Notes under the pieces: model-generated
Told to the model about the DNA's origin: nothing
The model's input: the letters and a program-made list of their open reading frames with translations, nothing else
Databases searched by the model: none
Part shown: positions 4,482 through 32,646 of the stretch, one piece after another
Layout of the letters: each line of letters begins with the position of its first letter
Numbering within the stretch: the stretch's first letter is position 1
Origin: Sphingomonadales bacterium
GTDB taxonomy: Bacteria > Pseudomonadota > Alphaproteobacteria > Sphingomonadales > Govanellaceae
Length of the DNA stretch: 64,000 nucleotides
Direction of reading: 5' to 3'
NCBI GenBank assembly: GCA_019455285.1
Contig: JACFMS010000017.1
Coordinates: forward strand, 1-64,000
Position numbers and translations under genes: made by a program

Positions 4482-4489
4482 CCTGATGG

Positions 4490-4507
4490 CTAGGGTCTTG
4501 ACCCTAG
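4490..4507. terminator. Possible bidirectional hairpin between convergent genes
   Basis: CTAGGGTC and GACCCTAG form a tight inverted repeat that overlaps the stop codon of the minus-strand nucleotidyltransferase gene. There is no T-run, so intrinsic termination is uncertain. Confidence 0.3.
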
Positions 4508-5569
4508 GGTTCGCCTCCAAACCTTGACGCCCAAGTGCCGGGCCAGCATCAGGGGCGGCATGCGGAGCCAATGGGAGCGGATATATAAAAGCTCCCCCGC
4601 CACCGCCGCGCCGGCTGCGCGGTCGAAGAGATGGGGCGGGATCAAGGCGGCGCGCACACACCAATCCATCACCCACCGCAACGGCGGCCAAGGCAGGGCG
4701 CGACGGGCGTCCGTCAGCACCTCCGCCGGCACCGGAGCCGCCAACAGATCGTGGGCGTAGCTGAGCGAATAGGCTAACGGCCGGGTAAGCCCCAACTCTT
4801 CGGCGCGGGCCTTCAGACGCTGCCAGAAGGCTGCATCACGGCCAAATTCCGCAATCAAGTCGCGCTGGTCGACGAGATCGCGCAAGCCGCCCCGAAGCTC
4901 GCCGTCGGCAAATAGATGCGCGGCGCTGTGCAAGAGAAGATCGGTATCGGAAAACACCGCGAAGCGCTCGTCGATCATGCGAGCATTGGCCAGGAGCTTC
5001 GCCGGGTCGGGCTTGTAGCGGCTGGTGGGCGGCAAAATGGTGTGATGGATGTCGATCACCGCGTTGCGCTCAGGGTGGCGCAACGGCGGCAGCTCATGCA
5101 TCCAGTCTCGATAATACTGCTGATCATAGTTGCTGCTTTTCACCTGCTGCCAGCCGGCGGCCATCAGCGTCGCCTCCAGCCATTGCAGGCTGTCGCGGCC
5201 AACCATGACGTCGATATCGGAGCTGACGCGGCCGGCGGCGCAGGGCAGCCCGGCGGCGACGTAGGCCGCGCCTTTCAGGAGTACGATCTTGATGTCGGAG
5301 CCAAGCGTCGCCCGCCGCACCCGGTCCATCTCCCACAGCAGCCGGGTGCGGCTCATCTCGGCGACTCGCCGCGCCCCGATCAACTGGTCACGCACGCCAG
5401 CAGCAAGACTGTCAAGGAGGCCATAGCGCTCGGCATCCGCCGCCACTCGGCCAAGGAGGCCGCAGGCCCGGGCCAAATAGAGCACTTGCGACCAGGCGTC
5501 CGCCGACAGTCCAGCCTGACGGGCGGGGTTTTTCAACACCGTCAACAGCAGTCGCGCGCCCTCCCTCAT
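4490..5569 (-). CDS. Nucleotidyltransferase family protein of an HPr-rel-A type operon
   Basis: The protein (359 residues) resembles the NTP_transf_5 group of uncharacterised nucleotidyltransferases. The core signature is visible: LLKGAAY near residues 97-103, then R114 and SSDIDVMV, with D118 and D120 as likely metal ligands. It is the last gene of a four-gene minus-strand operon; its ATG overlaps the stop of the HprK-like gene by 4 bases, which suggests translational coupling. Proteins of this kind recur beside HprK-related kinase A and a PqqD-like protein. What is nucleotidylated is not known: the kinase, the small secreted protein of the operon, or a sugar are all conceivable. Confidence 0.8.
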   Translation of the reverse strand: MREGARLLLTVLKNPARQAGLSADAWSQVLYLARACGLLGRVAADAERYGLLDSLAAGVRDQLIGARRVAEMSRTRLLWEMDRVRRATLGSDIKIVLLKGAAYVAAGLPCAAGRVSSDIDVMVGRDSLQWLEATLMAAGWQQVKSSNYDQQYYRDWMHELPPLRHPERNAVIDIHHTILPPTSRYKPDPAKLLANARMIDERFAVFSDTDLLLHSAAHLFADGELRGGLRDLVDQRDLIAEFGRDAAFWQRLKARAEELGLTRPLAYSLSYAHDLLAAPVPAEVLTDARRALPWPPLRWVMDWCVRAALIPPHLFDRAAGAAVAGELLYIRSHWLRMPPLMLARHLGVKVWRRTLGSRP

Positions 5570-6492
5570 GGCGCGTGCTCCATCAGGTCGGAAACCATGC
5601 GGATCGCCTGATCGAGGGAGCGGTAAATGAGGCGAAAAGAGCGGCAGCGGTCGGTCAGCGCCGCCAAAGTGCGAAACGCCGTCTCGCCTAAGCGGTCGCA
5701 GTTGACCGCCGCGCCGCGCACCATGGCGAAGGCCTCGTGCTTGGGCAGTTCAATGACCTGGGATTTGGCGTTGGGGTTATAGTTCGGATAGAGGATCAAG
5801 GACGCCGGCGCGGTTTCCGCCATGCGCTCCAGGGCGTCGCGAGGCGGCTTGAGGTAGCGGATGGTGCCTTTCGGCGTCTCGTGCAGAGGCCGGCTTAAGC
5901 GCTCGGGCATCACCCGTTCGGCCAGCACAGGGATCGATTCATTCTTCAAGGAGATGGGTCGGGGGTGGGGATGGAAAGCCAGGGTGTCGGGGTCAAGTAG
6001 CCCGAACTCGTCGGTAAAAAACCGCCAACCGGACAGCGACAGGCCGGCGGTCAGCGTGCTTTTGCCGATGCCCGAGGCGCCGGGCATGAGGATTGCCTTG
6101 CCGTCCCGCTCCACCAGCCCGGCATGAAACATCAAAAAACGGTCGCTGGAGGTGGCGACCAGCCAATTGAGGCCCATTTCCATAGCCAACATGCCCAAGT
6201 CCCCCGGCAGCGGCACGAAGGGCGTGTGGGCGAAGCCGGCGTCCGCCATCAGCTTGGGCCGGACCCAGCGGCGCAGCGGCGAGGTGGCGCGCACCTGAAG
6301 ATGAAAAGTCGTCGCTTCCGCCTCGCTGGCCAGGGGAAAGCCTTCGTACGTTTCGAGGAAATCATGGCGAAGGCGGGAAAACGGCGTGCGCACGTGGGCG
6401 ACAAACGGCCCAACGCGAAAGCGCAAGCCCTCACGTCTCAGCGCCCGGAAGTGCTCAGGCAATCGGGTGATGTCGCGAACGTCCCGCCCCAT
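5566..6492 (-). CDS. HprK-related kinase A
   Basis: This 308-residue cytosolic protein carries a P-loop, GASGIGKST at about 138-146, preceded by the conserved FHAG histidine region (H123) and followed by a TDEFGLL acidic motif near 160. This is the layout of the HPr kinase/phosphorylase C-terminal domain. The N-terminal 100 residues lack the normal HPrK regulatory domain. The match is to the 'HprK-related kinase A' group, which always travels with a PqqD-like protein and a nucleotidyltransferase. The target is unlikely to be HPr itself. The gene overlaps the downstream nucleotidyltransferase gene by 4 bases and follows the PqqD-like gene by 18 bases. Confidence 0.88.
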   Translation of the reverse strand: MGRDVRDITRLPEHFRALRREGLRFRVGPFVAHVRTPFSRLRHDFLETYEGFPLASEAEATTFHLQVRATSPLRRWVRPKLMADAGFAHTPFVPLPGDLGMLAMEMGLNWLVATSSDRFLMFHAGLVERDGKAILMPGASGIGKSTLTAGLSLSGWRFFTDEFGLLDPDTLAFHPHPRPISLKNESIPVLAERVMPERLSRPLHETPKGTIRYLKPPRDALERMAETAPASLILYPNYNPNAKSQVIELPKHEAFAMVRGAAVNCDRLGETAFRTLAALTDRCRSFRLIYRSLDQAIRMVSDLMEHAP

Positions 6493-6510
6493 GCCTTGTC
6501 GGTACTCGGC

Positions 6511-6852
6511 TTAATGGATGGTGACAAGCGGGAAGATGAGGCCTAAGCGGTCAAATTCCGCCACGATGGCTTCGACCTTGGGCGCCACTTCTACCTCCGG
6601 AGCCTCCAGCAACTCAGCCAGCGCCGTGGTTAAGGCCGATGCCGTGCGCGGGCTTTCCACCAATAGCGACAGCGCCTCATGGGCCAGAGCGTCGACCACA
6701 TGGGTATCGCCGGAGCGGGCGTTGAACACTACCGCCACTGCGCCAAGGTCATGCCATAAGAGCCGCTCGGGCGACGGCACCGTCCAAATGGAAAGCGGGC
6801 CGCCAGAGGGCCCGCTTTGCTGCCTATCGTCGGCCTTGGACACCGCCGTCAC
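6511..6852 (-). CDS. PqqD-like peptide chaperone (HPr-rel-A system)
   Basis: The protein has 113 residues. From about residue 30 on it shows the PqqD/RRE pattern, with a beta strand region (VAVVFNARSGDTHVVDALAH) followed by a helical segment ending LGLIFP. PqqD-type domains bind leader peptides in ribosomal peptide modification systems, so here the domain may present the small protein encoded directly upstream to the kinase or nucleotidyltransferase. The start codon overlaps the stop of that upstream gene by 4 bases (ATGA). The family match is to the HPr-rel-A PqqD proteins; the binding partner is inferred from gene order only. Confidence 0.82.
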   Translation of the reverse strand: MTAVSKADDRQQSGPSGGPLSIWTVPSPERLLWHDLGAVAVVFNARSGDTHVVDALAHEALSLLVESPRTASALTTALAELLEAPEVEVAPKVEAIVAEFDRLGLIFPLVTIH

Positions 6853-7271
6853 CCCGTGGGCAATCCGTTGATGGAAGCGAGACAGGTCTGGCCGATATTG
6901 TTGTTATAGACGAGCGCCCGCAGGCTATCGCTGTCAAGCTGGCCGTCGGCCACGTCGCCAGAACCTTTCGAGATGAAAATCGATTGGTAATTTTCATACC
7001 AAGGGTCGTTCTTTTTCGGTTTATCGACGCCGTCTTTGAGGATCGGCTCAAAATTCTCATCGACCTTGATGATCGCGCCGGGAATCGGCAGGTCGCCTTG
7101 CTGAATAAGGCAGCCGGCGGACACCGCCCAGGCCGAGGTCGAGCGAAACGTAAGGATCAGCGGCGCGCCAACGGCTCCAATCTTCAACAGACGGCGGCGC
7201 GTTTCACGCGCGTCGTTGGCCGCTTCGACCAGGTTATTTTCCATCGCTTTTTCCTGCTCTTTCAGGTTCAT
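6849..7271 (-). CDS. Small Tat-signal-like protein, candidate substrate of the HPr-rel-A operon
   Basis: This 140-residue protein has no family assigned with confidence. Near residues 23-30 it has TRRRLLKIG, close to the twin-arginine consensus (S/T-R-R-x-F-L-K). A hydrophobic stretch (GAPLILT) follows and ends at STSAWA, a plausible signal-peptidase site. The mature part is short and soluble, with two cysteines (in SAGCL and QTCLA) and a charged KKND segment. It is first in the operon and overlaps the PqqD-like gene by 4 bases. A GGAG lies 7 bases before the chosen ATG; a second ATG nine codons in also has an AGGA. A role as modified, exported substrate is inference. Confidence 0.7.
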   Translation of the reverse strand: MNLKEQEKAMENNLVEAANDARETRRRLLKIGAVGAPLILTFRSTSAWAVSAGCLIQQGDLPIPGAIIKVDENFEPILKDGVDKPKKNDPWYENYQSIFISKGSGDVADGQLDSDSLRALVYNNNIGQTCLASINGLPTG

Positions 7272-15795: not shown

Positions 15796-16575
15796 TTATA
15801 ATCCCGCTTTTTGCAGCAATTGGTAGATGTAAACCACGGGAATGGCGAAGGAAATTCCCGTCGGGTTGGTCAGCGCCCGCTCCTTCGTCTCCTTGACGAA
15901 GGTGCTGTTTAAAATCCCCACCACCCGGCCGCTGGTTATGTCATAGACCGGGCTGCCGCTGTTGCCGGGAAACGCCGTTAAATCAAGTTGATAGACGTCG
16001 AACGGATTGCGCAGGATCATCTTGGCGTCCAGGAGACGCGAATCCGGCTGCGGGATGCGGATCGGCGTGATGGCCGAGATGATGCCGGAATGGGTGACCG
16101 GGTAGACGCCCAGCACCGAGCCGATGGGATAGCCGGTGACGGCAATCGCCGTGCCGTCGGGCATGAGCCCGCCGGTACCCAGACGCGCCGGCGGCAACGC
16201 ATTGCCGGTGATTTTCAGGATCGCCACGTCATGATCAGGATCGATGGCGATCACCTCGGCGTCACGATCGCTGTAATTGCGACCATTGCCAACGATGATG
16301 ACCAGCCGTTCCATATTGGTCACGTTGATGCCGCCGGATACGACATGATAATTGGTGGCTACATACCGACCGTCATGCACGACAAATCCCGTGCCTTTCA
16401 AGTCGATAGGCGGCCGTCGCAATGCCTGAAAGGTGCCGATGCCGACGATGCTGCGACGCACTTCCTGGACGAGGTTGGGCAGACTGTCCGATATCGTCGG
16501 GTGCGCCAAGGCCGCGTTCGCGCCGCTTGCCGCGATGGCAAGCCATACCACACATAAGCGAATGTACGTCATCAT
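15796..16575 (-). CDS. Periplasmic trypsin-like serine protease (DegP-like, without PDZ domain)
   Basis: The 259-residue protein starts with a signal peptide (about residues 1-24, ending GANAALA) and is predicted to be exported. The S1 fold follows with a full catalytic triad: H77 in TNYHVV, D116 in DHDVAILK and S206 in FPGNSGSP. No PDZ domain follows, unlike DegP, DegQ or DegS, and the chain ends after the protease domain. It lies 25 bases downstream of the XrtA amidotransferase on the same strand, so it may be co-transcribed as the last gene of the XrtA locus. A link to processing of exported proteins there is possible but unproven. Confidence 0.85.
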   Translation of the reverse strand: MMTYIRLCVVWLAIAASGANAALAHPTISDSLPNLVQEVRRSIVGIGTFQALRRPPIDLKGTGFVVHDGRYVATNYHVVSGGINVTNMERLVIIVGNGRNYSDRDAEVIAIDPDHDVAILKITGNALPPARLGTGGLMPDGTAIAVTGYPIGSVLGVYPVTHSGIISAITPIRIPQPDSRLLDAKMILRNPFDVYQLDLTAFPGNSGSPVYDITSGRVVGILNSTFVKETKERALTNPTGISFAIPVVYIYQLLQKAGL

Positions 16576-16600
16576 GCGCGGATCCCCATGGAGCCATTAA

Positions 16601-18499
16601 TCATGAAATTTTGGCGCGTTTAAGGCTCGATTCGAACATCAGCACCGCCCATAGGGCGGCGCTATGGTTGGAGCGCCCGGATTGATGCTCATCCACAAGC
16701 CGGGTTAAGAAGCTCATATCGAGAATGCCAGTGTCGCTAAGAAGCTCGCTTTGCGCAACCTTTCTGATCTTGTCTTTGAGCGCGCCGCGAAACCAGTTCT
16801 CCAGCGGCACGGCAAAACCCATCTTTTCCCGATAGAGCGTACGCTCTGACAATAACGGCTCCAGAGCGCGCTTGAACGACAGTTTGCCTTGCCGCCCCTC
16901 GATATGCTGCGCCGGCGGAATCTGCGCCGCCCATTCCATGAATTTGTGGTCGAGGATGGGCACCCGCACCTCCAGCGAATGGGCCATGCTGGCGCGATCA
17001 ACCTTGGTCAGGATATCGCCGGCAAGATAGGTTTTGATGTCAGCGTACTGAATACGCGACAGCTCGTTGTCCACCGGCGCGTTATCCATGACGTTGCGCA
17101 ACACGCTTAAGGCTTCATAACCGCCCAAGCTCTTGCGGAATGAGGAACGCAACAGACAACTACGCAACCGGGTGGGCAGAATCGACACGCTGTGGAAATA
17201 ACCCTCCGCAGCGTCGAACGATAGAGCTTCGAAGGTGGACTTGGCGCGCAGAAATTTGGGCGCCCAGTCGAGCTTGGGGTACAAGCGGCCAAGAGCGCCA
17301 AAAATCGGCCGCCGCAGCATCAACGGCAGGCGATCGCGCAGGCGCTGCTCGTACATGTGCCAGCGGTGACGGCGGTAGCCGGCAAACAACTCATCGCCGC
17401 CATCGCCGGACAGCGCCACCGTGACATGCTCGCGCGCCAGTTCGCACACCCGATAGGTGGGCATTGCCGAGCTATCGGCGAAGGGCTCATCATAAAGATC
17501 GGCCAAGCGATCGACGAGCTCGAAATCATCGGGGTTGACCACCCGCGTGGTATGCGTGGTGTGATAGCGCCGCGCCACCTCTTGGGCGAAATCACGCTCG
17601 TCGTAGTCGGGCTGATCAAAGCCGATGGAATAGGTATTGACCGACCCCGTCGACAAGCCCGCCATCAACGCCACTACGGCGCTGGAATCGACGCCGCCGG
17701 AGAGAAACGCGCCCAACGGCACGTCGGCAATAAGGCGCAGCTTGACCGCCTCTTTCAGGCGCAGCACCAGTTCTTCCCGCACCGCTTCCGGAGTCAGTTT
17801 AGGATCAGTGCGAAATGCAATGTCCCAAAATGCCTTGGGTTCCGCGGCGTCAGCCCCACGGCGCTGTACCAGGATATGGCCAGGCGGCAATTTGCGGACG
17901 CTCTTTAAGATGGTTTTCGGCTCCGGGATATAGCCGTAGGCGAAATAGTCCTCCACCGCCTGCGGATCGATCGCGCGGGGTAAATCAGGAAGGGCGAAGA
18001 TCGCCTTTAATTCCGAGGCGAAGGCCAGACGGCCATCGGCCAAGTGCGCATAATAAAGCGGCTTGATGCCCAGCCGATCGCGGGCCAGAAACAACGTCTT
18101 GACTCGGCGATCCCAGACGGCGATGGCGAACATGCCGCGAAAGCGCTCGACGCAGGCCGGACCCCAGGCATCCCAGCCATAAACGATGACCTCGGTATCG
18201 CAGTGGGAGCGAAACTGGTAGCCCATTTTCTCCAGCTCCGCCCGTACCTCCATGAAATTGTAAATTTCGCCATTGAAGACGACCTGAATGTCGCCCGTCT
18301 CGTTGCTCATCGGCTGATGGCCGGCTTCGGTGAGGTCGATAATGGCCAGCCGGCGATGCCCCAGCGCCACCCCCGGCTCCACATGCACGCCCCAGCCGTC
18401 CGGCCCACGGTGGGTCAGGGTGTCGTTCATGCGGATCAACAACTGCCGGTCGAACTGCCGTTCGCCGGTGCGGTCGAACACCCCTACTAGACCACACAT
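16601..18499 (-). CDS. XrtA/PEP-CTERM system amidotransferase (asparagine-synthetase-like, glutaminase-active form)
   Basis: This 632-residue protein is predicted to transfer an amide group, or form an amide bond, during exopolysaccharide or surface-polymer synthesis. It begins MCGLVGVF, keeping the Cys2 nucleophile of class II glutamine amidotransferases. The synthetase half has the ATP-pyrophosphatase loop LSGGVDSSAVV and a second conserved ALSGDGGDELFAGY. The match is to the amidotransferase repeatedly found in exosortase A loci. It follows the exosortase gene by 21 bases. Ordinary AsnB for asparagine synthesis is the alternative, but context and length favour the XrtA type. Confidence 0.88.
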   Translation of the reverse strand: MCGLVGVFDRTGERQFDRQLLIRMNDTLTHRGPDGWGVHVEPGVALGHRRLAIIDLTEAGHQPMSNETGDIQVVFNGEIYNFMEVRAELEKMGYQFRSHCDTEVIVYGWDAWGPACVERFRGMFAIAVWDRRVKTLFLARDRLGIKPLYYAHLADGRLAFASELKAIFALPDLPRAIDPQAVEDYFAYGYIPEPKTILKSVRKLPPGHILVQRRGADAAEPKAFWDIAFRTDPKLTPEAVREELVLRLKEAVKLRLIADVPLGAFLSGGVDSSAVVALMAGLSTGSVNTYSIGFDQPDYDERDFAQEVARRYHTTHTTRVVNPDDFELVDRLADLYDEPFADSSAMPTYRVCELAREHVTVALSGDGGDELFAGYRRHRWHMYEQRLRDRLPLMLRRPIFGALGRLYPKLDWAPKFLRAKSTFEALSFDAAEGYFHSVSILPTRLRSCLLRSSFRKSLGGYEALSVLRNVMDNAPVDNELSRIQYADIKTYLAGDILTKVDRASMAHSLEVRVPILDHKFMEWAAQIPPAQHIEGRQGKLSFKRALEPLLSERTLYREKMGFAVPLENWFRGALKDKIRKVAQSELLSDTGILDMSFLTRLVDEHQSGRSNHSAALWAVLMFESSLKRAKIS

Positions 18500-18520
18500 C
18501 CACCCGTCCCCTTAACTTAC

Positions 18521-20062
18521 TTATTTTGCGCCGATTGTTCGAAAGCCCGGCAGATCGGCCCGGACATGGGCCAGAAAATCCGCCAGCACGGCGGGAGCCT
18601 CCTCCGCACGATACCCTTCATGGGTGGAAAAAGCGACCACCGCGGCAGCGTCCGAGCCATGACTCAACCGCGCCCAAAGATGCCACGCCTTGGCCAAGTA
18701 GTCATTGCTGGTCAGATGGCCGCCGATCCAGTACCAATGCCAAACCCGGCGCGCCTCGCCAACGGCTGAGATTTCGCTTTCCCGGGCCTTAACGTCGGCG
18801 TTCGCCAGGGTGATTGCGCGGTCGCGGCTGGCGCTCCAGGACCAGCGTCCGGGGTCTATGCCATTGCCGAACTGAATGAGCTCGCCCGCATCGCCCTGGA
18901 TGGCATAATAGCCATAGTATAGGGTAACTTCGGCGCCATCAGTGCGTTGGTAACGCGCCACCAGCTCATCGCTGACCCCGTCATAGCGCGGCGTCCAACT
19001 CGGCGCTGTCACCTCCGTCAACAGTCGCCACGGTCCTGCCGCTTCCGGCGCGGCCAGGGCGGCCAGGGGCGCTGGCGCAATGGTCATGGCGCGCGTCGCC
19101 AGCCACGGCCACGGCGCACTCAGCCCAGCAATCAGGAGAGTGATGACGCCAAGCTTCGCCGGCGGCGTAGCCGACGACGGTATTACCCAGGAAAAATCGA
19201 TGGCTGGCGCGTCGATGGGCTTGTCGGAAAACGACATGCCGATGAAAATCAAGGCCAGCGTCACGATGCTGAAAAAGATCCAGCCGTAGACGATGTGATC
19301 GACGCCGGTAGCGTATTCGTTATCAGTAAGGTACGCGATGTAGACGATGCCAAAAGCGCGAATGCCGTTGGCGACAATAGGCACCGCAAAGGACAGCGCC
19401 ACCACCGCTAGCCGCCGCCACCAGCTTTTAAACGCCATGTCGGCCAGGAGCACGCCCAAGGGGATCATGGCGATGAGGAAGCGCACCCCCGAACAGGCTT
19501 CGGCGACATGAAACTCCCCCGACGGCGTCGACAGAAAAACCCCGTCGCGAAATACCGGCACGCCGATGAGGCGCAAAAACCAGACCACGAAATCGGCGGT
19601 AAGGTTTTGCAGCGGCTGCACCAGGAAGTCGCCAAACGGCACCATGAACAGCAAAAAGCCGATGGGCAGAATGAGGGCGCGCGCCACGGTCCAGCCGACG
19701 ATCGCCAAGGTCGCGCCTTGCAGGGCGAACACCAGGGCGAATTCCTCGACCATGAGCACGCCTACCAACCGACCGAGCAGCCACAGGAAGCCGGCGGCGG
19801 CGACCAGCAGCAGCCCCAAAAGTTGGGGGCGGGGCGCCGTGCGTTGAAAAATCTCCCGCCGCTCCCAGGTCAGATAAGCGGCGATCAAGGGGATCAAAAA
19901 GCAGTGGTTATAGGTGGCTGAATTATGCCAGGTATCCATCATGCTGGCGGCGGTGTCGGCAAACATCGCCACGATGGCAACGATGGCCGCCAGCCACAGC
20001 GCACCGGCAACATACCAGTGGCGCTCCTTGATTGCAGCCGTCTGTGCTTCCGCCGTCACCAC
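18521..20062 (-). CDS. xrtA: Exosortase A fused to an EpsI domain
   Basis: Exosortase A is an inner-membrane cysteine transpeptidase thought to cleave and anchor PEP-CTERM proteins. The 513-residue protein has about eight membrane helices in its first 300 residues. The catalytic set is present: C190 in EACSGVRFL, R235 in NGIRAFGIVY and H256 in DHIVYGWIFF. The last 200 residues form a periplasmic EpsI-type domain (YYGYYAIQG, then YWIGGHLT), which in many loci is a separate gene. The fusion is known in other XrtA loci. No protein with a C-terminal PEP-CTERM signal was noticed in this window, so substrates must lie elsewhere. Confidence 0.93.
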   Translation of the reverse strand: MVTAEAQTAAIKERHWYVAGALWLAAIVAIVAMFADTAASMMDTWHNSATYNHCFLIPLIAAYLTWERREIFQRTAPRPQLLGLLLVAAAGFLWLLGRLVGVLMVEEFALVFALQGATLAIVGWTVARALILPIGFLLFMVPFGDFLVQPLQNLTADFVVWFLRLIGVPVFRDGVFLSTPSGEFHVAEACSGVRFLIAMIPLGVLLADMAFKSWWRRLAVVALSFAVPIVANGIRAFGIVYIAYLTDNEYATGVDHIVYGWIFFSIVTLALIFIGMSFSDKPIDAPAIDFSWVIPSSATPPAKLGVITLLIAGLSAPWPWLATRAMTIAPAPLAALAAPEAAGPWRLLTEVTAPSWTPRYDGVSDELVARYQRTDGAEVTLYYGYYAIQGDAGELIQFGNGIDPGRWSWSASRDRAITLANADVKARESEISAVGEARRVWHWYWIGGHLTSNDYLAKAWHLWARLSHGSDAAAVVAFSTHEGYRAEEAPAVLADFLAHVRADLPGFRTIGAK

Positions 20063-20093
20063 GTCACCTTAGCCGTTGCCCCGCCACGGTATA

Positions 20094-21305
20094 TCATGCC
20101 GTCACTTCCGACAGGTTAAGAAAGCGCTCCAGATGCGCCAGGCTCGCCGGCCAGCTATAGCGTTCGCGCACGCAGGCGCGCGCGTTCCGGCCCAGGCCGC
20201 CGAACTTGCCGTCAAGGACGTCAACCACCGCCGTGGCGAACGCCGTCGCGCCATCAGCGACCAAGAGATGCTCGCCCGGCGTTGCCTCGATGCCCTCGAA
20301 GGCTTCCCCGCTGGCTACCACCGGCTTGGCCATGGCCATGCCCTCCAGAACCTTGTTCTGGATGCCGCGGGCGATGCGCAAGGGACAGACCACCACCCCG
20401 GCATGGGCCAGGTAGGGCCGCACGTCCTCGACCCGCCCGGTCACCCGCACTCCCGACAATTTGGCCAGCGCCTGAACGGCGGCCGTCGGCCGGCCGCCGA
20501 CGATGGAAAAGACGGCCCTGGGAATGGCGGCGCGCACCGCCGGCAACACCTCGCGGACGAACCATTGGACGGCGTCCACATTGGCCCAGTAGTCCATGGC
20601 GCCGGTAAAGACGATGGCGGACTCGCTCGCCGGATAGGGCGAGGCAAAACCATGCTCGGGCGAGAAGTAGTTAAAATCAACGCCATTATTCAAATGGTGC
20701 ACGCGAGACGCCGATTCCGGTGCCAGAGCGCGAAACAGCGCCGCCTCCTTGGGCGAGACGAAGACGCTGACATCAACCGCCGCCGCAACCTGCCGCTCGA
20801 AGGCGAGGAGGCGGCGGTGCTCACGTTTATATACCCACGACATCGGCCAGGGCTTGGTGGCGGCGTACTGCCGCCATTTATCGGAATCCACATCGACGAA
20901 ATCCATCACCACCCGGCCGGCGCTTTTCTTGCTGCCCAGCACATATTGCGCCATCGGTGATGAGAACAGCACCGTGCCGGCAAGGGGACGATGATGGAGC
21001 GTCCAGTCGACCCACGCCATCATGCGGCGATCGTGATAATAGCTTACCGACAGCGCCTCGCCGGTGATGAGTCCTTTCAGAGAGCGCACGCGCCCACGGC
21101 GCGGATGAAGGGGAAGCGCCATCACCGAACCGCACAGGTCTTCCAGGAAACGCAGGTGTTTCCAGTCGTCCGGGTCATCGACAAAGCAGCCCAGATGCAC
21201 GGTATGGCGTTTCGCCAAATGCGCCAGCATGTGCCAGGAACGTATCTTATCGCCCTTGTCCGGCGGATAAGGGATGCGGTGGGCAAGAAACAGCACGTCG
21301 GCCAT
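20094..21305 (-). CDS. XrtA/PEP-CTERM system glycosyltransferase (TIGR03087 type)
   Basis: This 403-residue GT-B glycosyltransferase of the exopolysaccharide locus has an N-terminal acceptor domain opening LFLAHRIPYPPDKGDKIRSW, a motif diagnostic of the XrtA-linked group. The C-terminal GT4 domain has IVFTGAMDYWANVD and the nucleotide-sugar binding stretch around RGIQNKVLEGMAMAKPVV. It should add a sugar to the growing repeat unit at the cytoplasmic face of the inner membrane. It is 31 bases upstream of xrtA and 6 bases after the FemAB-like gene in the operon. The sugar donor is not predictable from sequence. Confidence 0.9.
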   Translation of the reverse strand: MADVLFLAHRIPYPPDKGDKIRSWHMLAHLAKRHTVHLGCFVDDPDDWKHLRFLEDLCGSVMALPLHPRRGRVRSLKGLITGEALSVSYYHDRRMMAWVDWTLHHRPLAGTVLFSSPMAQYVLGSKKSAGRVVMDFVDVDSDKWRQYAATKPWPMSWVYKREHRRLLAFERQVAAAVDVSVFVSPKEAALFRALAPESASRVHHLNNGVDFNYFSPEHGFASPYPASESAIVFTGAMDYWANVDAVQWFVREVLPAVRAAIPRAVFSIVGGRPTAAVQALAKLSGVRVTGRVEDVRPYLAHAGVVVCPLRIARGIQNKVLEGMAMAKPVVASGEAFEGIEATPGEHLLVADGATAFATAVVDVLDGKFGGLGRNARACVRERYSWPASLAHLERFLNLSEVTA

Positions 21306-21311
21306 GGCGCG

Positions 21312-22340
21312 TCAGCCTAAATCGCGGGCGATCAGCGGCCCGAGCCGATTGGCAAGCCATAGCGGTAGCCGCTGCCAGGTAGCCACCATCAGACGATATT
21401 TAGGATTTAAGGGATTGACGTCGGGTACGGCGACGCCGGGCGCGAGCTTATATTCATATTCTAGCGGCGTCGGCTCAAAGCCCCAGTTTTTCTTGAACGA
21501 AAACGCGCCGGTACCGACCTTGGAGCGGCCGAAATCAAAGAGCCGCGCGCCGCGATCCTCGACCGCCCGGCGCATCACCTCCCAATACATGAAATCGTTG
21601 GCGGCAAGGGCGCGCGCCGCCGTCGTGCCGCCGCCGTAATAGGGCAGCACCTCATCGCGAAAATAGAAGTTCATCACCGCGCTGACCGCCTGACCGTCAT
21701 GGCTGATGGTGACGATATCGCAGTCCTTGCCGAAGGCGCGGAGAAGGTTAGCAAAGTAGCGCTTGGCGAATACCGGCGTGCCGAGATTACGCACGCTTTC
21801 CGCATACATGGCGAAAAAGCGATCGACGGTGGCGTCGACCTCGGAAGACAGCCCGCGCTCGATGCCCTTGCGCACCATGGCGCGCTGCTTGCGCGGAATG
21901 GCCTTCATGTTGGCGTCGTGATCGGCGGCGATAGCCTTGCGAAAAGTTGCATAGACGTTGTCCTTGGCCGCCCAATCAGTATGGCGACGCGTGCGGCTGC
22001 GGTATTCAAGGACATCGATACCGCTTGTGCGAGCAATCCGCCAAGCCGCGTCATCCAGCGCTTGCGCCGCTTCAGCCGACGACGCCAACGGTCCACCATA
22101 GACGCAAAAGGCATTGGAAATAAGCGAGCGGCCGAACAGCCGGCTTCTGATCTCAGTCAGCGGCAGCACGCCCTGAACGTCATTACCCTCTAGCGCTAGA
22201 AGATAAGGCGTGCGGTGACCGAAGCTTTCCCTGATCACCCGCGCCCAGGCGGCGCGATGGAAGAAAGTGCCATCGGCATGGGCATCCACATAAGCATCCC
22301 AGCGGGCCTCATCGGCGTCGGCAAGCAAACGAACGTCCAT
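21312..22340 (-). CDS. FemAB-family XrtA/PEP-CTERM system protein
   Basis: The 342-residue protein belongs to the FemAB/GNAT-fold group linked to exosortase A loci (TIGR03019 type). Such folds transfer an aminoacyl or acyl group to an amine, often from aminoacyl-tRNA. Visible features are the N-terminal FFHRAAWARVI segment and the C-terminal GNAT half with YYGGGTTAARALAANDFMYWEV, then FDFGRSKVGTGAFSFKKNWGF, which is characteristic of the family. It lies 1 base after the deacetylase stop and 6 bases before the glycosyltransferase gene. Its acceptor, possibly an amino sugar of the polymer exposed by the deacetylase, is an inference. Confidence 0.9.
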   Translation of the reverse strand: MDVRLLADADEARWDAYVDAHADGTFFHRAAWARVIRESFGHRTPYLLALEGNDVQGVLPLTEIRSRLFGRSLISNAFCVYGGPLASSAEAAQALDDAAWRIARTSGIDVLEYRSRTRRHTDWAAKDNVYATFRKAIAADHDANMKAIPRKQRAMVRKGIERGLSSEVDATVDRFFAMYAESVRNLGTPVFAKRYFANLLRAFGKDCDIVTISHDGQAVSAVMNFYFRDEVLPYYGGGTTAARALAANDFMYWEVMRRAVEDRGARLFDFGRSKVGTGAFSFKKNWGFEPTPLEYEYKLAPGVAVPDVNPLNPKYRLMVATWQRLPLWLANRLGPLIARDLG

Positions 22341-22341
22341 C

Positions 22342-23202
22342 TCACGCCACCTTCAGGAATACGTCATCGACGCGGCCCCAAGAGAAATCTTGCAGCACGC
22401 GGCTCAGTTTCGCTTCCATATGACGCAGATTTGTATAGTGACGAAAACGCGATTTTAAGGGCGCTTGGGTTTGCCGGGGCTGGTCGGGATCGATCTCCCA
22501 GGGATGGAAATAAAACATGCAGGCGCCGCCTTCCGCATTGATACGGCGCATGGCGGCGCGCGACAGCGCATAGGGCAAAAGACGGAAGTAGCCGCCGCCG
22601 CCGCAGGGCAGGCGCTTGCCGAACAGCTCTACGGTGGTGACCGGAATTTCCGTGAACTGACTGCCGGGAAAGGGATGAAAAGCAAAGCGCGGCGCACTGG
22701 GCATGCCATAAAGATCATGCTTGATGGGATAAATGGAGGAGCTGTAGCGGTAGCCGATTTCCGCCAGCACCTCAAGCGCCCATAGATTTTGCTCACCAAT
22801 AGAAAAACTCGCAGCGCGGTAGCCCTGCACCGGAACGCCGCCAATATCCTCCAGAAGCGCCTTGGTATCGCTGACGTCAGTGCGAAAGGTCATGCGGTCT
22901 TGATGATTGGCCCGCACATGATCCATGCCGTGGCTGGCCAGTTCATGGCCTTCGGCGATGATGCGGCGCACCAGCGCGGGAAAGCGCTCCGCCACCCATC
23001 CCAGCGTGAAAAACGTCGCCTTGATGTTTGCTTGCGCGAACAGATCGAGCACCCGGTTGGTGTTACCCTCGACCCGGCTTGGCAAATAGTTCCAAGCGTC
23101 GCGCGCGATCACGTCCTCGAACGCCTGGACCTGGAAATAATCCTCGACGTCGCAGGTCATGGCGTTGCGGATCGGCGCCTCTGCCTTACGACTCGCGACC
23201 AT
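22342..23202 (-). CDS. XrtA system polysaccharide deacetylase
   Basis: This NodB-fold deacetylase is predicted to remove N-acetyl groups from the exopolysaccharide. Motif 1 is MTCDVEDYFQV with the catalytic Asp, and motif 2 is ELASHGMDHVR, supplying the two metal-binding histidines. Late in the chain, MFYFHPWEID is the XrtA-type histidine motif. The ATG at 23202 is chosen because it follows GGGGAGG and leaves a 17-base overlap with the upstream ATPase gene; an open frame to 23289 would need a 104-base overlap. The resulting 286-residue chain matches the usual length of the exosortase-linked group. Confidence 0.9.
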   Translation of the reverse strand: MVASRKAEAPIRNAMTCDVEDYFQVQAFEDVIARDAWNYLPSRVEGNTNRVLDLFAQANIKATFFTLGWVAERFPALVRRIIAEGHELASHGMDHVRANHQDRMTFRTDVSDTKALLEDIGGVPVQGYRAASFSIGEQNLWALEVLAEIGYRYSSSIYPIKHDLYGMPSAPRFAFHPFPGSQFTEIPVTTVELFGKRLPCGGGGYFRLLPYALSRAAMRRINAEGGACMFYFHPWEIDPDQPRQTQAPLKSRFRHYTNLRHMEAKLSRVLQDFSWGRVDDVFLKVA

Positions 23203-24274
23203 CGGCCTCCCCTTCCTGACCTTCCTGCGCCAGCCATTTAGCGGCGATCTCAAGGGCTTGCTTGATGGTCTGGTCATGGAGGCGGACATATTCTTCCAAT
23301 ACGGCGAGCCGCCGCTCGATCTCGCTTAACGAGGCAAGAGGATGTCCGCTGCCGTTGAGGGAAGCGGCCTTGGCCGATAGTTCATCATCAAGATGAGCCT
23401 TGAGCGCCGATACTTCCTCGCTGGTTTTTTGCGCCTCTTCGCGCGCTTTGGCAGCGGCGCGGTTGTCGCGTTCCAGATCGGCGATAACCTCCAGCACCAC
23501 CTCGCCGGTGATCTTGCGCAGCTCTTCCAACGCGCCATAGAGAAGGATACGGCTACACAGCGTATTCAATTTGCGCGGCAGGCCGCCAGTATATTCAAAA
23601 ATCGCCTGAAACGCATCGGGCGTAAATTCAGGATCGCCCTGCCAACCCACCAGCTCCATGCGGTGACGGATGTAATGTTCCGTCTCTTCGGCAGTCATGG
23701 TGGACAGGTGATGAGTGGCGATCACCCGTTGCCGGAGCTGCTCCAGATCGGGGTCGAGCGCCCACTTGTCGCGAAATTCCGGCTGGCCGAGGAGAAAACT
23801 TTGCAGGAGCGCCCGGCCGCTGTCCTGGAAGTTGGACAGCATGCGCAGCTCCTCGAGCGCGCCCTTGGGCAAATTCTGCGCCTCGTCGATGATGAGGAGC
23901 GCGCGCTTGCCCGAGCGCGCCTGGCCGCGCAAGAAGCTTTCGATCCGCTGCAACAGGGTCGCCTTGTCGGCCCCTTCGGTGGGCAAGCCGAAGCCGGAGG
24001 CCACCATGCGCAAGGTATCGTCAGCGTTGAGCTGCGTCGTCACCACCTTGGAGGCGACGTAGCGGTCCCGGTCGAGCTCATCGAAAAGATGGCCAACGAG
24101 AGTCGTCTTGCCGGCCCCGATCTCGCCGGTAACGATGATGAAGCCCTCCCCCTGGTTCAAGCCATAGGTCAGGTACGCCATCGCCTTGCGGTGGGTGCTG
24201 CTGTCGAAATAAAAGCGCGGGTCAGGCGTTAATTGGAACGGCCGTCCCGTCAGCTTGTAGAATTCCACGTACAT
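23186..24274 (-). CDS. XrtA-associated AAA ATPase (ExeA/GspA-like)
   Basis: The 362-residue protein starts with MYVEFYKLTGRPFQLTPDPRF in near-consensus form for the exosortase-linked ATPases. It carries Walker A TGEIGAGKTTLV and Walker B LLIIDEAQN. The arginine-rich sensor segment LRQRVIATHHL and the C-terminal helical lid (GGLPRKLNTLCSRILLYG) follow. The last 90 residues are a charged coiled-coil-like tail. Such ATPases are thought to help assemble the polysaccharide export machinery at the inner membrane. It is placed between the outer-membrane barrel gene (26 bases upstream) and the deacetylase gene (17-base overlap). Confidence 0.92.
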   Translation of the reverse strand: MYVEFYKLTGRPFQLTPDPRFYFDSSTHRKAMAYLTYGLNQGEGFIIVTGEIGAGKTTLVGHLFDELDRDRYVASKVVTTQLNADDTLRMVASGFGLPTEGADKATLLQRIESFLRGQARSGKRALLIIDEAQNLPKGALEELRMLSNFQDSGRALLQSFLLGQPEFRDKWALDPDLEQLRQRVIATHHLSTMTAEETEHYIRHRMELVGWQGDPEFTPDAFQAIFEYTGGLPRKLNTLCSRILLYGALEELRKITGEVVLEVIADLERDNRAAAKAREEAQKTSEEVSALKAHLDDELSAKAASLNGSGHPLASLSEIERRLAVLEEYVRLHDQTIKQALEIAAKWLAQEGQEGEADGRES

Positions 24275-24300
24275 TCAACATCTCTAGAAGGTTACCCGGT

Positions 24301-25746
24301 TTAGAAGGTTGCCCGGATGTTGATCTTCACCGCATTTTCCTTAAGGTCTCGTGAAGCCTCGTCGGATTCCCGGCTGGTGAAGTAGTAGGTCACCCCCCCT
24401 GAGATGTATTGCGAAAAGCTATAATTCAGCCCGGCATGCGCGCCATAGAAGTCGTCTTCCCGGGCCGCCAACCCCTTTATCTCGGTTTTTTCATAGTTCC
24501 CGCCGATATTGGCCGTCAAGCGCGGCGATAGCCGGCGGCTGATAACGCCGTGCCCGCCATAGCGATTTTCCGGCGGCGTGGTGGCGATGTCGAACCGCCG
24601 CTCCTCATAAAAGCCATCCAGCGAGAACGTGGTGCGGCCGCGGCTGCCGTTCACCCCGCCATAGACGCGGTTGCGCTTGAAGGCGCTATCAACCAGCGAA
24701 AAGCCGCCGGGATCAACCACCGGGCCGCCCGGCTCGCCGCCGCTGAGCTCATCCTGCAGGATGCGCAAGGTGGTCGTGATCTCCTCGGTATAGCCGGCCC
24801 GCACCCGGGTGCGGTTCGATATCTTGTAGTTGAGAACCGCCGACCAGTTCATTTCATTATAACGCTCGCCGCCCCGCACCGTCAGCACGGTGCGCGGGCC
24901 CGGCTTCAAGGTGAAGCCCGCATCCCAGGTAACGCCATCACGATCGTTGAGCAGCGAGGTGTCGGTGATATCCTCATAGCCGACGCTGCCCAGGAGCGTC
25001 AGCCATTGGCTGACGGTATAACGCAATTCCGCCCGCCCGATGGCGCGTTCGCTATCACGCCGGCCCTGGGTACGATCATCGCGGGTATAGCTGCCCGAAA
25101 GGCTCCACCCTAAGCGGGTGAAGCTGGGGCCGCTGTCAAGCTGGACAACACCCTGATGGCTGACGGTTTCCGACAGTACGTCAAGCAGCGGGTTGTTGGA
25201 CGCCGGTCCGCTGACGTCGACATAGCTTAAGCGGTAGCGAGCGGTGGCCGTCGCCAGGGTTCCCAGCGGCCGGCGGATATAGGGCGAAATATTGTAGTTC
25301 TGCACCGTGCGACGGTTATCGGTGGCGTTGTCCTGATTGCCAGATATGGCGCCGCCGCGATCAAGAAACTGCTGGTTGACCGAACCGCCGAGGTCGAGGA
25401 AGAAGAAGTCCTCAATAAGCTCGCTGTGACCGCGGGCGTCAAGAAAATGACGCAAGTCCGTATCCTCATCGGACCGGGCGAAAATCAGGTAATTCAACCG
25501 ATATGTCAGGTCGAGAGTAGTGCGGCCGCTCTTGCCGGTCACTTGGACGCCCGGCGAGATGCGGGTAATGAAATCGGTTTTGCGGCCGGTTCCGGTGGCA
25601 TTGAGATCGACGTTATCGGTATAAGTTTCGGCCACCTCAAGCTCCGGCGTGGCGTGCCATTGCCCGGCCATCGCCGGAATGGACGCCAGCCAAGCGATGA
25701 GCGCCGTCGACAGACCGAAACGGCCATAATACGCGCGATGTGTCAT
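24301..25746 (-). CDS. XrtA/PEP-CTERM system outer-membrane beta-barrel protein
   Basis: The protein (481 residues from the chosen start) opens with a signal peptide ending ASIPAMAG. The rest is a run of alternating beta-strand segments rich in Tyr, Arg and Gly, and it ends in phenylalanine (INIRATF), as outer-membrane barrels do. It matches the 'PEP-CTERM system associated' barrel group (TIGR03016 type), probably the outer-membrane port for the polymer. GGGGGGAAA lies about 10 bases before ATG 25746; an upstream in-frame start at 25806 would overlap the tyrosine-kinase gene and give an abnormal N-terminus. Confidence 0.87.
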   Translation of the reverse strand: MTHRAYYGRFGLSTALIAWLASIPAMAGQWHATPELEVAETYTDNVDLNATGTGRKTDFITRISPGVQVTGKSGRTTLDLTYRLNYLIFARSDEDTDLRHFLDARGHSELIEDFFFLDLGGSVNQQFLDRGGAISGNQDNATDNRRTVQNYNISPYIRRPLGTLATATARYRLSYVDVSGPASNNPLLDVLSETVSHQGVVQLDSGPSFTRLGWSLSGSYTRDDRTQGRRDSERAIGRAELRYTVSQWLTLLGSVGYEDITDTSLLNDRDGVTWDAGFTLKPGPRTVLTVRGGERYNEMNWSAVLNYKISNRTRVRAGYTEEITTTLRILQDELSGGEPGGPVVDPGGFSLVDSAFKRNRVYGGVNGSRGRTTFSLDGFYEERRFDIATTPPENRYGGHGVISRRLSPRLTANIGGNYEKTEIKGLAAREDDFYGAHAGLNYSFSQYISGGVTYYFTSRESDEASRDLKENAVKINIRATF

Positions 25747-25777
25747 CCGATTTGTTTCCCCCCTGGAGGTTATCCTC

Positions 25778-26668
25778 TCAGGTGCCGTACCCGTAATAGG
25801 TTCCAAACTTCTTTTCTCCGGCTGAGAAGCGAGATTTATTGAGCAGCAGATTGATGTGTTGACACGAACTTACCAGAGACAACGCTTCTTTCAACTGGGG
25901 TTCGCGCGTCCGCTCCGCTTCGACCACAAACAGGATCTGCCCGACGTGCAGCGCCAGCACCGACGCGACGCTGGAGGCAAGCGCCGGCGGCGAGTCGAAA
26001 ATGACCACCCGGTCGGGATAGCGCTTGGCGATTTCCTCGACGATCACGCCCATGCGTTCGCTGGCCAGAAGCTCGGTGGTCAGGTTGTGCTGACGTCCCG
26101 CCGGCAACAGCACCAAGTTATCGATATTGGTCCGCAACAGACAGTCGCTTAAATCCAAATTTTGGTCGGCCACCACATCCACCAGCCCCCGGCCGCCTTC
26201 CACCCCGAGAGTTTTCAAGACCTCGGGCTTATGGGTATCGGCATCCACCAAGAGCACGGTGACATCCCGCTCCGTGGCGATGCTCATGGCCAAGTTGACC
26301 GCGCAGAAAGTCTTGCCCTCGCCGGGTTGGGTGCTGGTCACCAGGATGAGGTTGCCGTTGCGGATGGCCCCTTCGCCCTTGGCGAAGGCATTCAACAAGA
26401 GGCTGCGTTTAACCAGACGGAACTCTTCCGCCATGGTGGTCGGCTCGCTGTCGGGCGTTAAGTAGTTATCGGCCTTCATGGCCTCGAAATTGATGTTGAC
26501 GCGGCGACCGCGGCGGTTCTCCCGCGCCTCCGGCGCGCTGACCGCCGCCTTGGTTTCCGGCGCCGAGGCGGGGGCGGGCTGGGACTGCGCCATTTTTTCC
26601 GCCGCCCGTTCGACCAGGGAGCCGCCGGCCTTCTTCATCTTCTGCGCTGCGCGTTCAATGAGATCCAT
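25778..26668 (-). CDS. XrtA-associated tyrosine autokinase (BY-kinase)
   Basis: This cytosolic bacterial tyrosine kinase controls polysaccharide chain length together with the membrane protein encoded just upstream. The 296-residue protein has Walker A TSTQPGEGKTFCAVN, Walker A' VLLVDADTHKP and Walker B VVIFDSPPAL. It ends in a tyrosine cluster (FGTYYGYGT), the autophosphorylation tail. The N-terminal 60 residues are charged and low in complexity. As in other XrtA loci, the kinase is a separate protein from the chain-length determinant and has no membrane helix of its own. Confidence 0.93.
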   Translation of the reverse strand: MDLIERAAQKMKKAGGSLVERAAEKMAQSQPAPASAPETKAAVSAPEARENRRGRRVNINFEAMKADNYLTPDSEPTTMAEEFRLVKRSLLLNAFAKGEGAIRNGNLILVTSTQPGEGKTFCAVNLAMSIATERDVTVLLVDADTHKPEVLKTLGVEGGRGLVDVVADQNLDLSDCLLRTNIDNLVLLPAGRQHNLTTELLASERMGVIVEEIAKRYPDRVVIFDSPPALASSVASVLALHVGQILFVVEAERTREPQLKEALSLVSSCQHINLLLNKSRFSAGEKKFGTYYGYGT

Positions 26669-26711
26669 AAAGCCTCCTAGGCCACCAGAAGATTACCGCG
26701 GAGGGCTTCAA

Positions 26712-28259
26712 TCAGCAGCACCCCTCCGTAGGCCCGAACAAACCGATGATGCCAATGCCGAACGCCATCAGATTACGACGGTGCAGACGCTGCTCCTCTT
26801 CCGTCATAATCGCCGATATGCTGCCCAGCACCGGAAAGACGAAGTTTTCCCGCAGCCGCTGAACCGTAGCATAGGTGGTATGCAACTGGCTCATCAAAAA
26901 CGCCACGCCAATGCCGGCGCCCAATCCGACAATCAGCACGCCGGATAAAAACAGCAGGCGGTTGGGGCTGCTTGGTAATTTCGGAACTTGCGGCGGATCG
27001 ATGACGCGAATCTGTACGCCATCGGTCTTGCTTTCCAGCTCCTGCGCCAAGCGCGCCGATTCCCGGCGTTGCAACAGCTTTTCGTAGTTCGCCTTGATGG
27101 TTTCATAATCGCGGTTGAGGCGGGCCAGTTCGGCTTCAACCTCGGGCACCCGCTGGGCCATGCCCTCCAACTGCTCAACGGTCCGACGGTGTTGATCAAC
27201 CCGCCCTTGCAAGCCGGCGATCAACGTCTCCATGTCGATGAGGCGGATTTTCAATTGCTCATAAATCGGGTTCGGCGCCACCGCGCTGCCGCCCGGGATC
27301 GGACCGCCTTCGCCTTTCTCCATCTGCTCGACGATCATCGTCTGCTCTTTGGCAAACTCTTTTTGCAGCTCCGCGATGGTCTCCTTCATGATGATGACGT
27401 CGGGGTGCTGCTCCTTATAACCGCGCTCGCGCAGTTCATCGAGCCGACGCTGCTTGGCGGCGATGCGCTGCGGCAGATCGGACACCGTGCCGCCGATGGG
27501 CGGACCGCCGGCGTTGCTGGCAGCGGTGATATAGGGCGGAACATTGGCCAGCTGCCGCTTCATCTCGTTGCGGCGGACTTTGGCATCCTCCAGATCAGCA
27601 GTCGCCACGACCAGCTGCTGCCGGGAATCCTGAAGCTTCTGGAAATAATTGCTGTCGCCAGGCAGCATCCCAAGATTCTTTTGCTGAAATTCCGCCTTGC
27701 GCCGCTCAGAAGCGGTAAGCTCCTGCTCATGCTTGCGCAGCTGCTCGTCAAGAAAGCGGCGGGTGCCGGTCAAATCTTTGCGGCTGGCGCCGATGTTCGC
27801 TTCCACGAACAAGGTAAGCAGGGACTGCACCACCTTTTTCGACAACTGCGGATCCGGATCCTCATACGACAGCTTGAAAAGATTGGCCCCGCTGACTGCC
27901 AGCCCGATGCGCTTTTGCACGTCGACGATGATCGCTTCCAGCTCGTTCTCGTTCTTGGCATTGAGGTCGAGGTCGGTCATGCGCACGACCTTTTCCATGT
28001 TCGGCCGGCTGATCAACGTCTGCCGGACCATGCTCAATTGCTGCATCATGTCGGTATTGACCGCAATGCCGCGCATCAGGTTGTTGAGCATGGTTTCGGT
28101 GTCGACGTAAATGCGCGCCGACGCCTCGTATTTGTTGGGAATCTGCGCCACCAGAAACCAGCCGATCGCCGACACCACCCAGGCGGTGATGAGCGCATAG
28201 GTCCGGCGCTGCCAAATGCCGTACCCGATGGCGACGATTTGTTGATAAATCTCGTTCAT
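26712..28259 (-). CDS. XrtA system polysaccharide chain-length determinant (C-terminus frameshifted)
   Basis: This Wzz-like inner-membrane co-polymerase (TIGR03007 type, 515 residues as read) has a first membrane helix at about 20-40, a long periplasmic coiled-coil region, the proline-rich PPQVPKLPSSPNR segment, and a second membrane helix (FLSGVLIVGLGAGIGVAFL). The final helix is cut short: the frame ends ...IIGLFGPTEGCC. One base added near 26731-26736 would instead read GAYGGVLLIEALRGNLLVA and stop at 26678-26680, just 10 bases before the kinase start. That alternative reading fits the family. A one-base deletion, real or from sequencing, is therefore likely. Confidence 0.9.
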   Translation of the reverse strand: MNEIYQQIVAIGYGIWQRRTYALITAWVVSAIGWFLVAQIPNKYEASARIYVDTETMLNNLMRGIAVNTDMMQQLSMVRQTLISRPNMEKVVRMTDLDLNAKNENELEAIIVDVQKRIGLAVSGANLFKLSYEDPDPQLSKKVVQSLLTLFVEANIGASRKDLTGTRRFLDEQLRKHEQELTASERRKAEFQQKNLGMLPGDSNYFQKLQDSRQQLVVATADLEDAKVRRNEMKRQLANVPPYITAASNAGGPPIGGTVSDLPQRIAAKQRRLDELRERGYKEQHPDVIIMKETIAELQKEFAKEQTMIVEQMEKGEGGPIPGGSAVAPNPIYEQLKIRLIDMETLIAGLQGRVDQHRRTVEQLEGMAQRVPEVEAELARLNRDYETIKANYEKLLQRRESARLAQELESKTDGVQIRVIDPPQVPKLPSSPNRLLFLSGVLIVGLGAGIGVAFLMSQLHTTYATVQRLRENFVFPVLGSISAIMTEEEQRLHRRNLMAFGIGIIGLFGPTEGCC

Positions 28260-28604
28260 TGCACCTTACTTCCGCACCCTCGCAGACGGTTCTTCATCAC
28301 CAGCGAACGAGCCGTCCTGGCTGTTACCGTCGGGGGCAAGCCCGCCCTTGCGCTGGCCTGACTTGCCAATACCCCGGTTCGACTTGGCCTTAGTATGAAA
28401 CCGCCGAATTAACAGCCACTTAAAGCAAACTCAAGAAAGTTATGTGACTTAAGCGTCATTTCACCCCAAGGCCGCTCCGCCGCGCCGATTGACTCTTGGG
28501 CCGTGGCGGGAACCACCGAAGACTACAGTCGGCGCCCCATGTTCATAGCGGCGCCGACCGCGTTGTTTTTGCCCGACGAGACTCGGACGTGCCTTAACGG
28601 AGGC
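28260..28604. other. Intergenic region between export lipoprotein and chain-length genes
   Basis: No gene is seen in these 345 bases. GTCGGCGCC (28528-28536) and GGCGCCGAC (28550-28558) form a perfect 9-bp stem with a 13-base loop, 47 bases past the export gene stop. It has no T-run on the minus strand, but it may slow or end transcription. The more AT-rich half, about 28380-28480, lies upstream of the chain-length gene and probably holds its promoter, dividing the XrtA locus into at least two transcripts. Confidence 0.5.
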
Positions 28605-29216
28605 TTAGAAGAAGCTCTCCGGGATGATGATGACATCGCCCGGCATGATGCCGACGTTGGCGGTGGAATCGCCATCCTTCAGGAGGTCCGAAATTCTCAA
28701 TCCATATTCCTTCTGGGCGCCACCTTCGCTGCGCACCAGGGCCGCACCATTACCGGACGCGAATTCGGTCAGCCCGCCCACCGCGATCATGACGTCCAGA
28801 AGCGTCATGTTGGCGCGATAGGGGATCGCCTGCGGCTTGGCCGCCGCACCCACCACCCGCACCTGCTGGGCGAAGGGACCGACAAAGCCGGTGACCATCA
28901 CGGTGACGATCGGGCTTTGGATGTAGGAGCCAAGTTTCTCCTCGATCGCCCGCGCCAATTCGGTCGGCGTCTTGCCGGTGGCCACCATGTCATCGATCAG
29001 CGGCACCGAGAACCGGCCGTCGGGGCGCACCTGTACCGAGGTCGACAGCTCCGGGTTGCGCCAGACGAAGATCGACAGGTTATCGAGCGGACCAACTACA
29101 TAGTTTGGCCCCGGACCTTCCTGTGGCGGCACGAAATTGGCCGACGGCAATTCACCACCGCCATGGGAGCAAGCCACTAAGAACAGGCCAAGAATGGCCG
29201 CCGACACTACCTTCAT
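28605..29216 (-). CDS. XrtA/PEP-CTERM system polysaccharide export lipoprotein (Wza-like)
   Basis: This periplasmic/outer-membrane polysaccharide export protein has 204 residues. A lipoprotein signal is clear: MKVVSAAILGLFLVACS, with the lipobox VAC. The polysaccharide export domain follows (YVVGPLDNLSIFVWRNPELS, then VQVRPDGRFSVPLI) and then a SLBB domain (GAAAKPQAIPYRANMTLLDVM). The C-terminus PGDVIIIPESFF is typical of the family. The ATG at 29216 is preferred over upstream starts because GGGGA lies 8 bases before it and it leaves a standard lipoprotein signal. It should form the export pore with the chain-length protein. Confidence 0.92.
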   Translation of the reverse strand: MKVVSAAILGLFLVACSHGGGELPSANFVPPQEGPGPNYVVGPLDNLSIFVWRNPELSTSVQVRPDGRFSVPLIDDMVATGKTPTELARAIEEKLGSYIQSPIVTVMVTGFVGPFAQQVRVVGAAAKPQAIPYRANMTLLDVMIAVGGLTEFASGNGAALVRSEGGAQKEYGLRISDLLKDGDSTANVGIMPGDVIIIPESFF

Positions 29217-31398: not shown

Positions 31399-31401
31399 GA
31401 C

Positions 31402-32637: not shown

Positions 32638-32646
32638 ACCCGTCCC

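Follow-up and report, generated by a model that had tools for sequence, protein, structure and literature searches.

The operon and the protein encoded by its first gene

The window, as we call the whole 64,000-nucleotide stretch of DNA from a Sphingomonadales bacterium that was analyzed, contains four closely spaced genes on its minus strand, which are designated here A, B, C and D in the order of their transcription. These genes, two segments of protein A and a gene cluster located outside the operon are the following:

6849..7271, minus strand: gene A, encoding a small twin-arginine protein with two cysteines, the proposed substrate (140 amino acids; list of open reading frames and family alignment)
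7128..7202 (approximate), minus strand: twin-arginine signal-like region of A, about residues 24-49, TRRRLLKIGAVGAPLILTFRSTSAWA
6873..6884, minus strand: near-C-terminal Cys-x-x-Ser of A (C130-L-A-S133; alignment), the proposed modification site
6511..6852, minus strand: gene B, encoding an HPr-rel-A PqqD-family protein with a predicted RRE fold (113 amino acids; TIGR04353 and structure model)
5566..6492, minus strand: gene C, encoding the HprK-related kinase A (308 amino acids; TIGR04352)
4490..5569, minus strand: gene D, encoding a nucleotidyltransferase (NTP_transf_5, 359 amino acids; PF14907)
15796..34227, minus strand: exosortase A (XrtA)/PEP-CTERM exopolysaccharide locus, the likely functional setting (models over cut-off)

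An original prediction, made from the sequence of this DNA, had described four minus-strand genes joined by 4-base overlaps or an 18-base gap, and the coordinates of the open reading frames confirm this arrangement: A and B overlap by four bases (GTGA), as do C and D (ATGA), while B and C are separated by 18 bases. The identities assigned there to the three downstream genes (a PqqD/RRE-like protein, an HprK-related kinase and a nucleotidyltransferase) are corroborated by curated models, since B scores 56.2 bits against TIGR04353 (cut-off 35), C 271 bits against TIGR04352 (cut-off 200) and D 184.9 bits against PF14907. Comparison with the close relative L070 shows purifying selection on each of the four genes, with dN/dS values of 0.17 for A, 0.17 for B, 0.05 for C and 0.08 for D. 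Because A is both under selection and conserved, we could rule out that it is a spurious open reading frame.

The grouping of kinase, chaperone and nucleotidyltransferase, which had been described as recurrent but of obscure function, corresponds to the HPr-rel-A system: B and C are members of it (TIGR04353 chaperone, TIGR04352 kinase), D is its usual PF14907 partner, and the gene order is the same. These enzymes are hence already known as a named but uncharacterized system. The name HPr-rel-A covers the kinase and the chaperone only, so that A falls outside it; in a Sphingomonas record where the genes are arranged identically, the enzymes carry HPr-rel-A names while the upstream relative of A is annotated as a "hypothetical protein." Our literature search on HPr-rel-A, TIGR04352, PF14907, and exosortase together with PqqD or HPr kinase retrieved no paper on the system, and in the literature searched we did not find the candidate substrate family, its spread across classes, or its tie to lasso-type tailoring.

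Protein A carries the TRRRLLKIG motif and exactly two cysteines (C54 and C130), as had been pointed out, and the motif is followed by a short hydrophobic stretch that closes at an A-x-A-like site. An alignment of 51 relatives revealed seven invariant residues (R26, L29, G32, S51, C54, C130 and S133, in the numbering of the window protein), of which the arginine pair, the leucine, the glycine and the Cys..Ser near the end had been partly pre-selected when the first set of A sequences was gathered, while S51 and C54 had not. Beyond the arginine pair, the conserved elements of the family are a Ser-x(2,4)-Cys that follows the signal and, near the C-terminus, a Cys-x-x-Ser; the latter is found in all 12 relatives that were picked without a rule for this motif. 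In a second family of A proteins, the 16 aligned sequences, from other classes, end in an invariant C-W-x-S. Conserved ends flank long, variable and often acidic or repetitive inserts, and the length of the proteins varies between 116 and 298 amino acids. The number of cysteines is even in 64 of the 67 A-type proteins, which suggests that disulfides are formed outside the membrane.

The description of A as Tat-signal-like holds at the level of the motif. The RR-x-[LF] motif is present in 51 of 51 A relatives (partly pre-selected for the arginine pair) and in 16 of 16 proteins of the second family, and the host genome encodes TatC; the curated Tat-signal model, however, matches a single one of the 51 relatives, and does so weakly (E 0.002). 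Searches of A against Pfam and NCBIfam gave no useful match, and among the 51 relatives each library yielded one weak match, to a twin-arginine-signal model. Likewise, a profile search of A against the PDB found nothing credible, and the structure model of A was poor (pLDDT 61) and too unreliable for a fold search.

Association of protein A with the HPr-rel-A genes

A single-query contig scan recovered one close relative only, and family-level searches were therefore adopted. An unanchored search of 60 relatives for A alone returned many matches that adjoined kinase matches. In whole-genome profile searches of 198 genomes of the order, which likewise were not anchored to the operon, the kinase exceeded its cut-off in 88 genomes and A was detected in 89. 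Both proteins were present in 87 genomes, A only in two, the kinase only in one, and neither in 108 (Fisher P = 6e-53, uncorrected for the relatedness of the genomes). One of the two genomes with A only (G093) contains a kinase scoring 197.7 of the 200 bits needed, the other (G105) is 78% complete, and the sole kinase-only genome of the order (G035) is 89% complete.

Of 61 individual loci, namely that of the window and 60 from the order, profile searches placed a homologue of A immediately ahead of B in 57. Across the phylum, 61 of 398 genomes were above the kinase cut-off; among the 31 loci read from other classes, 28 have a gene for a twin-arginine protein just upstream of the operon, and for the remaining three the A gene is located on a different contig of the same genome. 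The profile of the second A family matched 39 of the 398 genomes, each of which also contained the kinase (39/39; P = 1e-38). With an association so far above chance, an accidental adjacency of A to B-C-D is ruled out. The tight coupling of the small first-gene protein to the HPr-rel-A genes, which had been singled out at the outset, is thereby borne out, with A as their constant partner. The stricter expectation that A always adjoins the PqqD-like gene applies to most loci of the order and of the other classes, and the exceptions that we checked keep A elsewhere. We looked for kinase-carrying genomes devoid of any A across some 95 loci and 600 genomes, and the incomplete genome G035 alone showed none by either profile search or visual inspection. 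Collectively, A is a near-obligate partner of the HPr-rel-A genes.

In one genus (g28) and in genome G052 the operon is split, with B-C-D at one site and A at another beside PhoR. The A gene is kept in every split genome examined, and when parted from B-C-D it adjoins PhoR, its usual upstream neighbor (L175, L189-L191). Tandem copies of A occur at three loci (L054, L095, L099), and orphan copies without adjacent enzyme genes occur in one genus (L185-L188); in all of these genomes the kinase is single. Duplicated or orphan A genes alongside single enzymes are what one expects of a substrate, and these extra copies fit one modifying set that serves several substrates. The orphan paralogues of L185-L188, situated far from the HPr-rel-A genes, retain the signal and the near-C-terminal Cys-x-x-Ser.

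Given that A is found beside B-C-D and almost never without them, it is probably the protein that B, C and D chemically modify before export.

Predicted functions of the enzymes and comparison with lasso peptide tailoring

The structure model of B (pLDDT 88.5) comprises a three-stranded sheet and three helices of the RRE type. When this model was compared with the PDB by Foldseek, the top matches were TbiB1 and TfuB1, lasso-pathway RREs whose structures were solved with leader peptides; MibB, PqqD (5sxy) and other RiPP enzymes were also among the top ten. The matches reached a probability of 1.00, yet their E-values lay between 0.002 and 0.05, with none below 0.001. A profile search of B against the PDB had given weak matches, including TfuB1 and a sactipeptide enzyme, and the question was settled by the fold search. 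The proposed RRE-like nature of B is hence upheld as a predicted fold, that of a leader-binding RRE most similar to those of lasso clusters.

In their alignments, C and D retain residues of the catalytic type. Over 89 sequences of C, H123, G141-x-G-K144 (with G143), an S/T, T146, D161, E162 and K208 are invariant or nearly so; the protein has the P-loop of HPr kinases (G-x-x-x-x-GK[ST]) with an upstream His and a downstream Asp, and a phmmer search of C against the PDB gave no useful match. Over 78 sequences of D, R114, D118 and D120 are invariant and D173 is nearly so, which corresponds to a D-x-D plus a third Asp.

A comparable set of proteins operates in the tailoring of lasso peptides (PadeK, ThcoK, SyanK and PsmK/PsmN), where an HprK-like kinase, a PqqD-like RRE and a nucleotidyltransferase likewise attend to one ribosomal substrate. 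The tailoring kinases phosphorylate the C-terminal serine of the lasso peptide, and PsmN is reported to place hexoses on that serine, possibly after prior nucleotidylation (PMC9266682). As in A, the conserved serine of these substrates is near the C-terminus. One relative possesses a lasso-type cluster (L199, 5399-12947, minus strand) that combines a cyclase scoring below the curated lasso cut-off with PqqD-like, HprK-like and PF14907 proteins and an ABC transporter, and it thus holds homologues of B, C and D. At two further loci, in other genomes, L200 (6295-8503, plus strand) and L203 (6100-8200, plus strand), an HprK-like kinase gene is directly followed by that of a PF14907 enzyme, and no cyclase was recognized beside these pairs. 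Their kinases possess a long N-terminal extension that looks PqqD-like by eye. The suggested resemblance of the operon to a ribosomal peptide modification system is therefore sustained in part, through the predicted RRE fold of B and through the kinase/PF14907 combination, which is a tailoring pair in lasso-type clusters.

The A-B-C-D operon departs from lasso clusters in several respects: genes for a B2 peptidase, a lasso cyclase and an ABC exporter are absent, the proposed substrate A is long and bears a twin-arginine signal, and C has D161-E162 where the lasso-type kinases that we examined have DD. We sought a lasso cyclase and a leader peptidase in the operon and found neither, which rules it out as a lasso cluster. 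The lasso cyclase model requires 525 bits, of which the nearby amidotransferase, an enzyme of the XrtA type (TIGR03108 over cut-off), attains 258.

These data also bear on the idea that A is a genuine RiPP precursor: after phosphorylation and decoration, further cleavage of its mature part would liberate a small product or cofactor, as in the case of PQQ or lasso peptides. While an RRE, a kinase and a nucleotidyltransferase do look like RiPP tailoring enzymes, the operon lacks a peptidase, a cyclase and a dedicated exporter; A, with its long variable inserts, is unlike a short core peptide; and the amidotransferase of the adjoining XrtA loci falls far under the lasso cyclase model. We consider this precursor model quite improbable.

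On balance, we lean towards A-B-C-D being an RRE-guided protein-modification operon, in which B would bind A, C would phosphorylate it, D would decorate it and the Tat system would export the product. With its twin-arginine signal, A would linger in the cytoplasm, where B may grip its N-terminal signal or leader region. Against this speaks that the stretch ahead of the twin arginines varies among A relatives, so that no classical RiPP leader motif is conspicuous. The HprK-like kinase C would phosphorylate a serine of A, most likely S133 of the near-C-terminal Cys-x-x-Ser, and by analogy with the kinase/nucleotidyltransferase pairs of lasso pathways, D might add a nucleotidyl or sugar group to the resulting phosphoserine. 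Modified A would leave the cell via Tat, whereupon its two invariant cysteines could pair. Nucleotide-dependent chemistry must come before export, and this would explain why the Tat route is used.

A third group of A proteins (L154, L160, L166-L171 and L206 of Vibrio) has a signal of the same kind. It lacks the near-C-terminal Cys-x-x-Ser, and its mature part is seemingly unrelated to that of the other groups. Hence, one acceptor site cannot serve all A groups, and the signal region is the sole part of A common to all of them. This last feature would suit a different arrangement, in which B, as a Tat proofreading chaperone, would hold the signal of A; A would be an unmodified exported partner, and C and D would have other targets, for example a sugar precursor or the polysaccharide machinery. 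The position of the operon in or near exosortase/polysaccharide loci is consistent with it as well. Nevertheless, A and C co-occur as tightly as parts of one reaction, even when their genes are unlinked, and in lasso clusters both the HprK-like kinase and the nucleotidyltransferase target the ribosomal peptide itself (PMC9266682), with homologous families present in the lasso-type cluster of a relative. We therefore regard such a chaperone role for B as unlikely.

Genomic setting of the operon

An XrtA locus, which the original prediction did not mention, lies 9 kb from the operon in the same window. The exosortase scores 337 bits, and the XrtA amidotransferase, stp1 glycosyltransferase, FemAB, ATPase, tyrosine kinase and chain-length protein are all over their cut-offs. 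The locus then continues with a second asparagine-synthase-like protein (29545-31398) and with PLP-type decarboxylase-like and acyl-CoA ligase-like proteins. Within the order, phoR-pst, gph-glmU-glmS or XrtA genes flank the operon in 63 of 64 loci. XrtA-system genes are present inside the fetched region in 14 of these 64 loci and in 21 of the 31 loci from other classes. An exosortase is encoded in 82 of 88 kinase-positive and in 69 of 110 other genomes of the order; since so many kinase-less genomes possess one, HPr-rel-A is an optional companion of XrtA. A itself does not carry a PEP-CTERM tail.

PhoR/Pst genes flank 50 of the 64 loci of the order, and this raises the issue of whether A serves in the periplasm as a sensor or regulator connected with phosphate starvation and is co-transcribed with B-C-D through shared regulation, without being their substrate. 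That A remains beside PhoR when parted from B-C-D could be read in the same way; however, this persistence is accounted for by ancestral gene order, and in other classes the pairing of A with the enzymes is maintained without PhoR, which occurs at one of the 31 loci, while XrtA genes are found instead (21/31). A role in phosphate sensing therefore strikes us as highly improbable.

Returning to A as a modified protein, we envisage that its site of action after export would be outside the membrane, where it would probably cooperate with the exosortase A/exopolysaccharide machinery. Our broadest proposal, which we offer tentatively and rate as possible rather than probable, is a new class of RRE-guided post-translational modification that acts on an entire protein exported by Tat rather than on a small peptide: a lasso-type kinase/nucleotidyltransferase pair would first phosphorylate this protein and then glycosylate or nucleotidylate it, and the decorated product would take part in exopolysaccharide assembly linked to exosortase A, perhaps as a polysaccharide carrier or anchor. 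If true, RRE-guided chemistry would extend from peptides to Tat-exported proteins, and the exosortase A/exopolysaccharide loci of many Proteobacteria would gain an added function. HPr-rel-A has so far been a name without a substrate, and A supplies a candidate that is open to mass spectrometry.

Two minor observations concern the surroundings of the operon. The region between D and gph (4378-4488) contains a repeat with palindromic arms that has 35 matches in its own genome and hence belongs to a dispersed REP-like family. The operon is also carried by large plasmids of Sphingomonas parapaucimobilis (880 kb; L205) and Vibrio alfacsensis (L206), the former of which keeps the pst/glmU/glmS neighbors.
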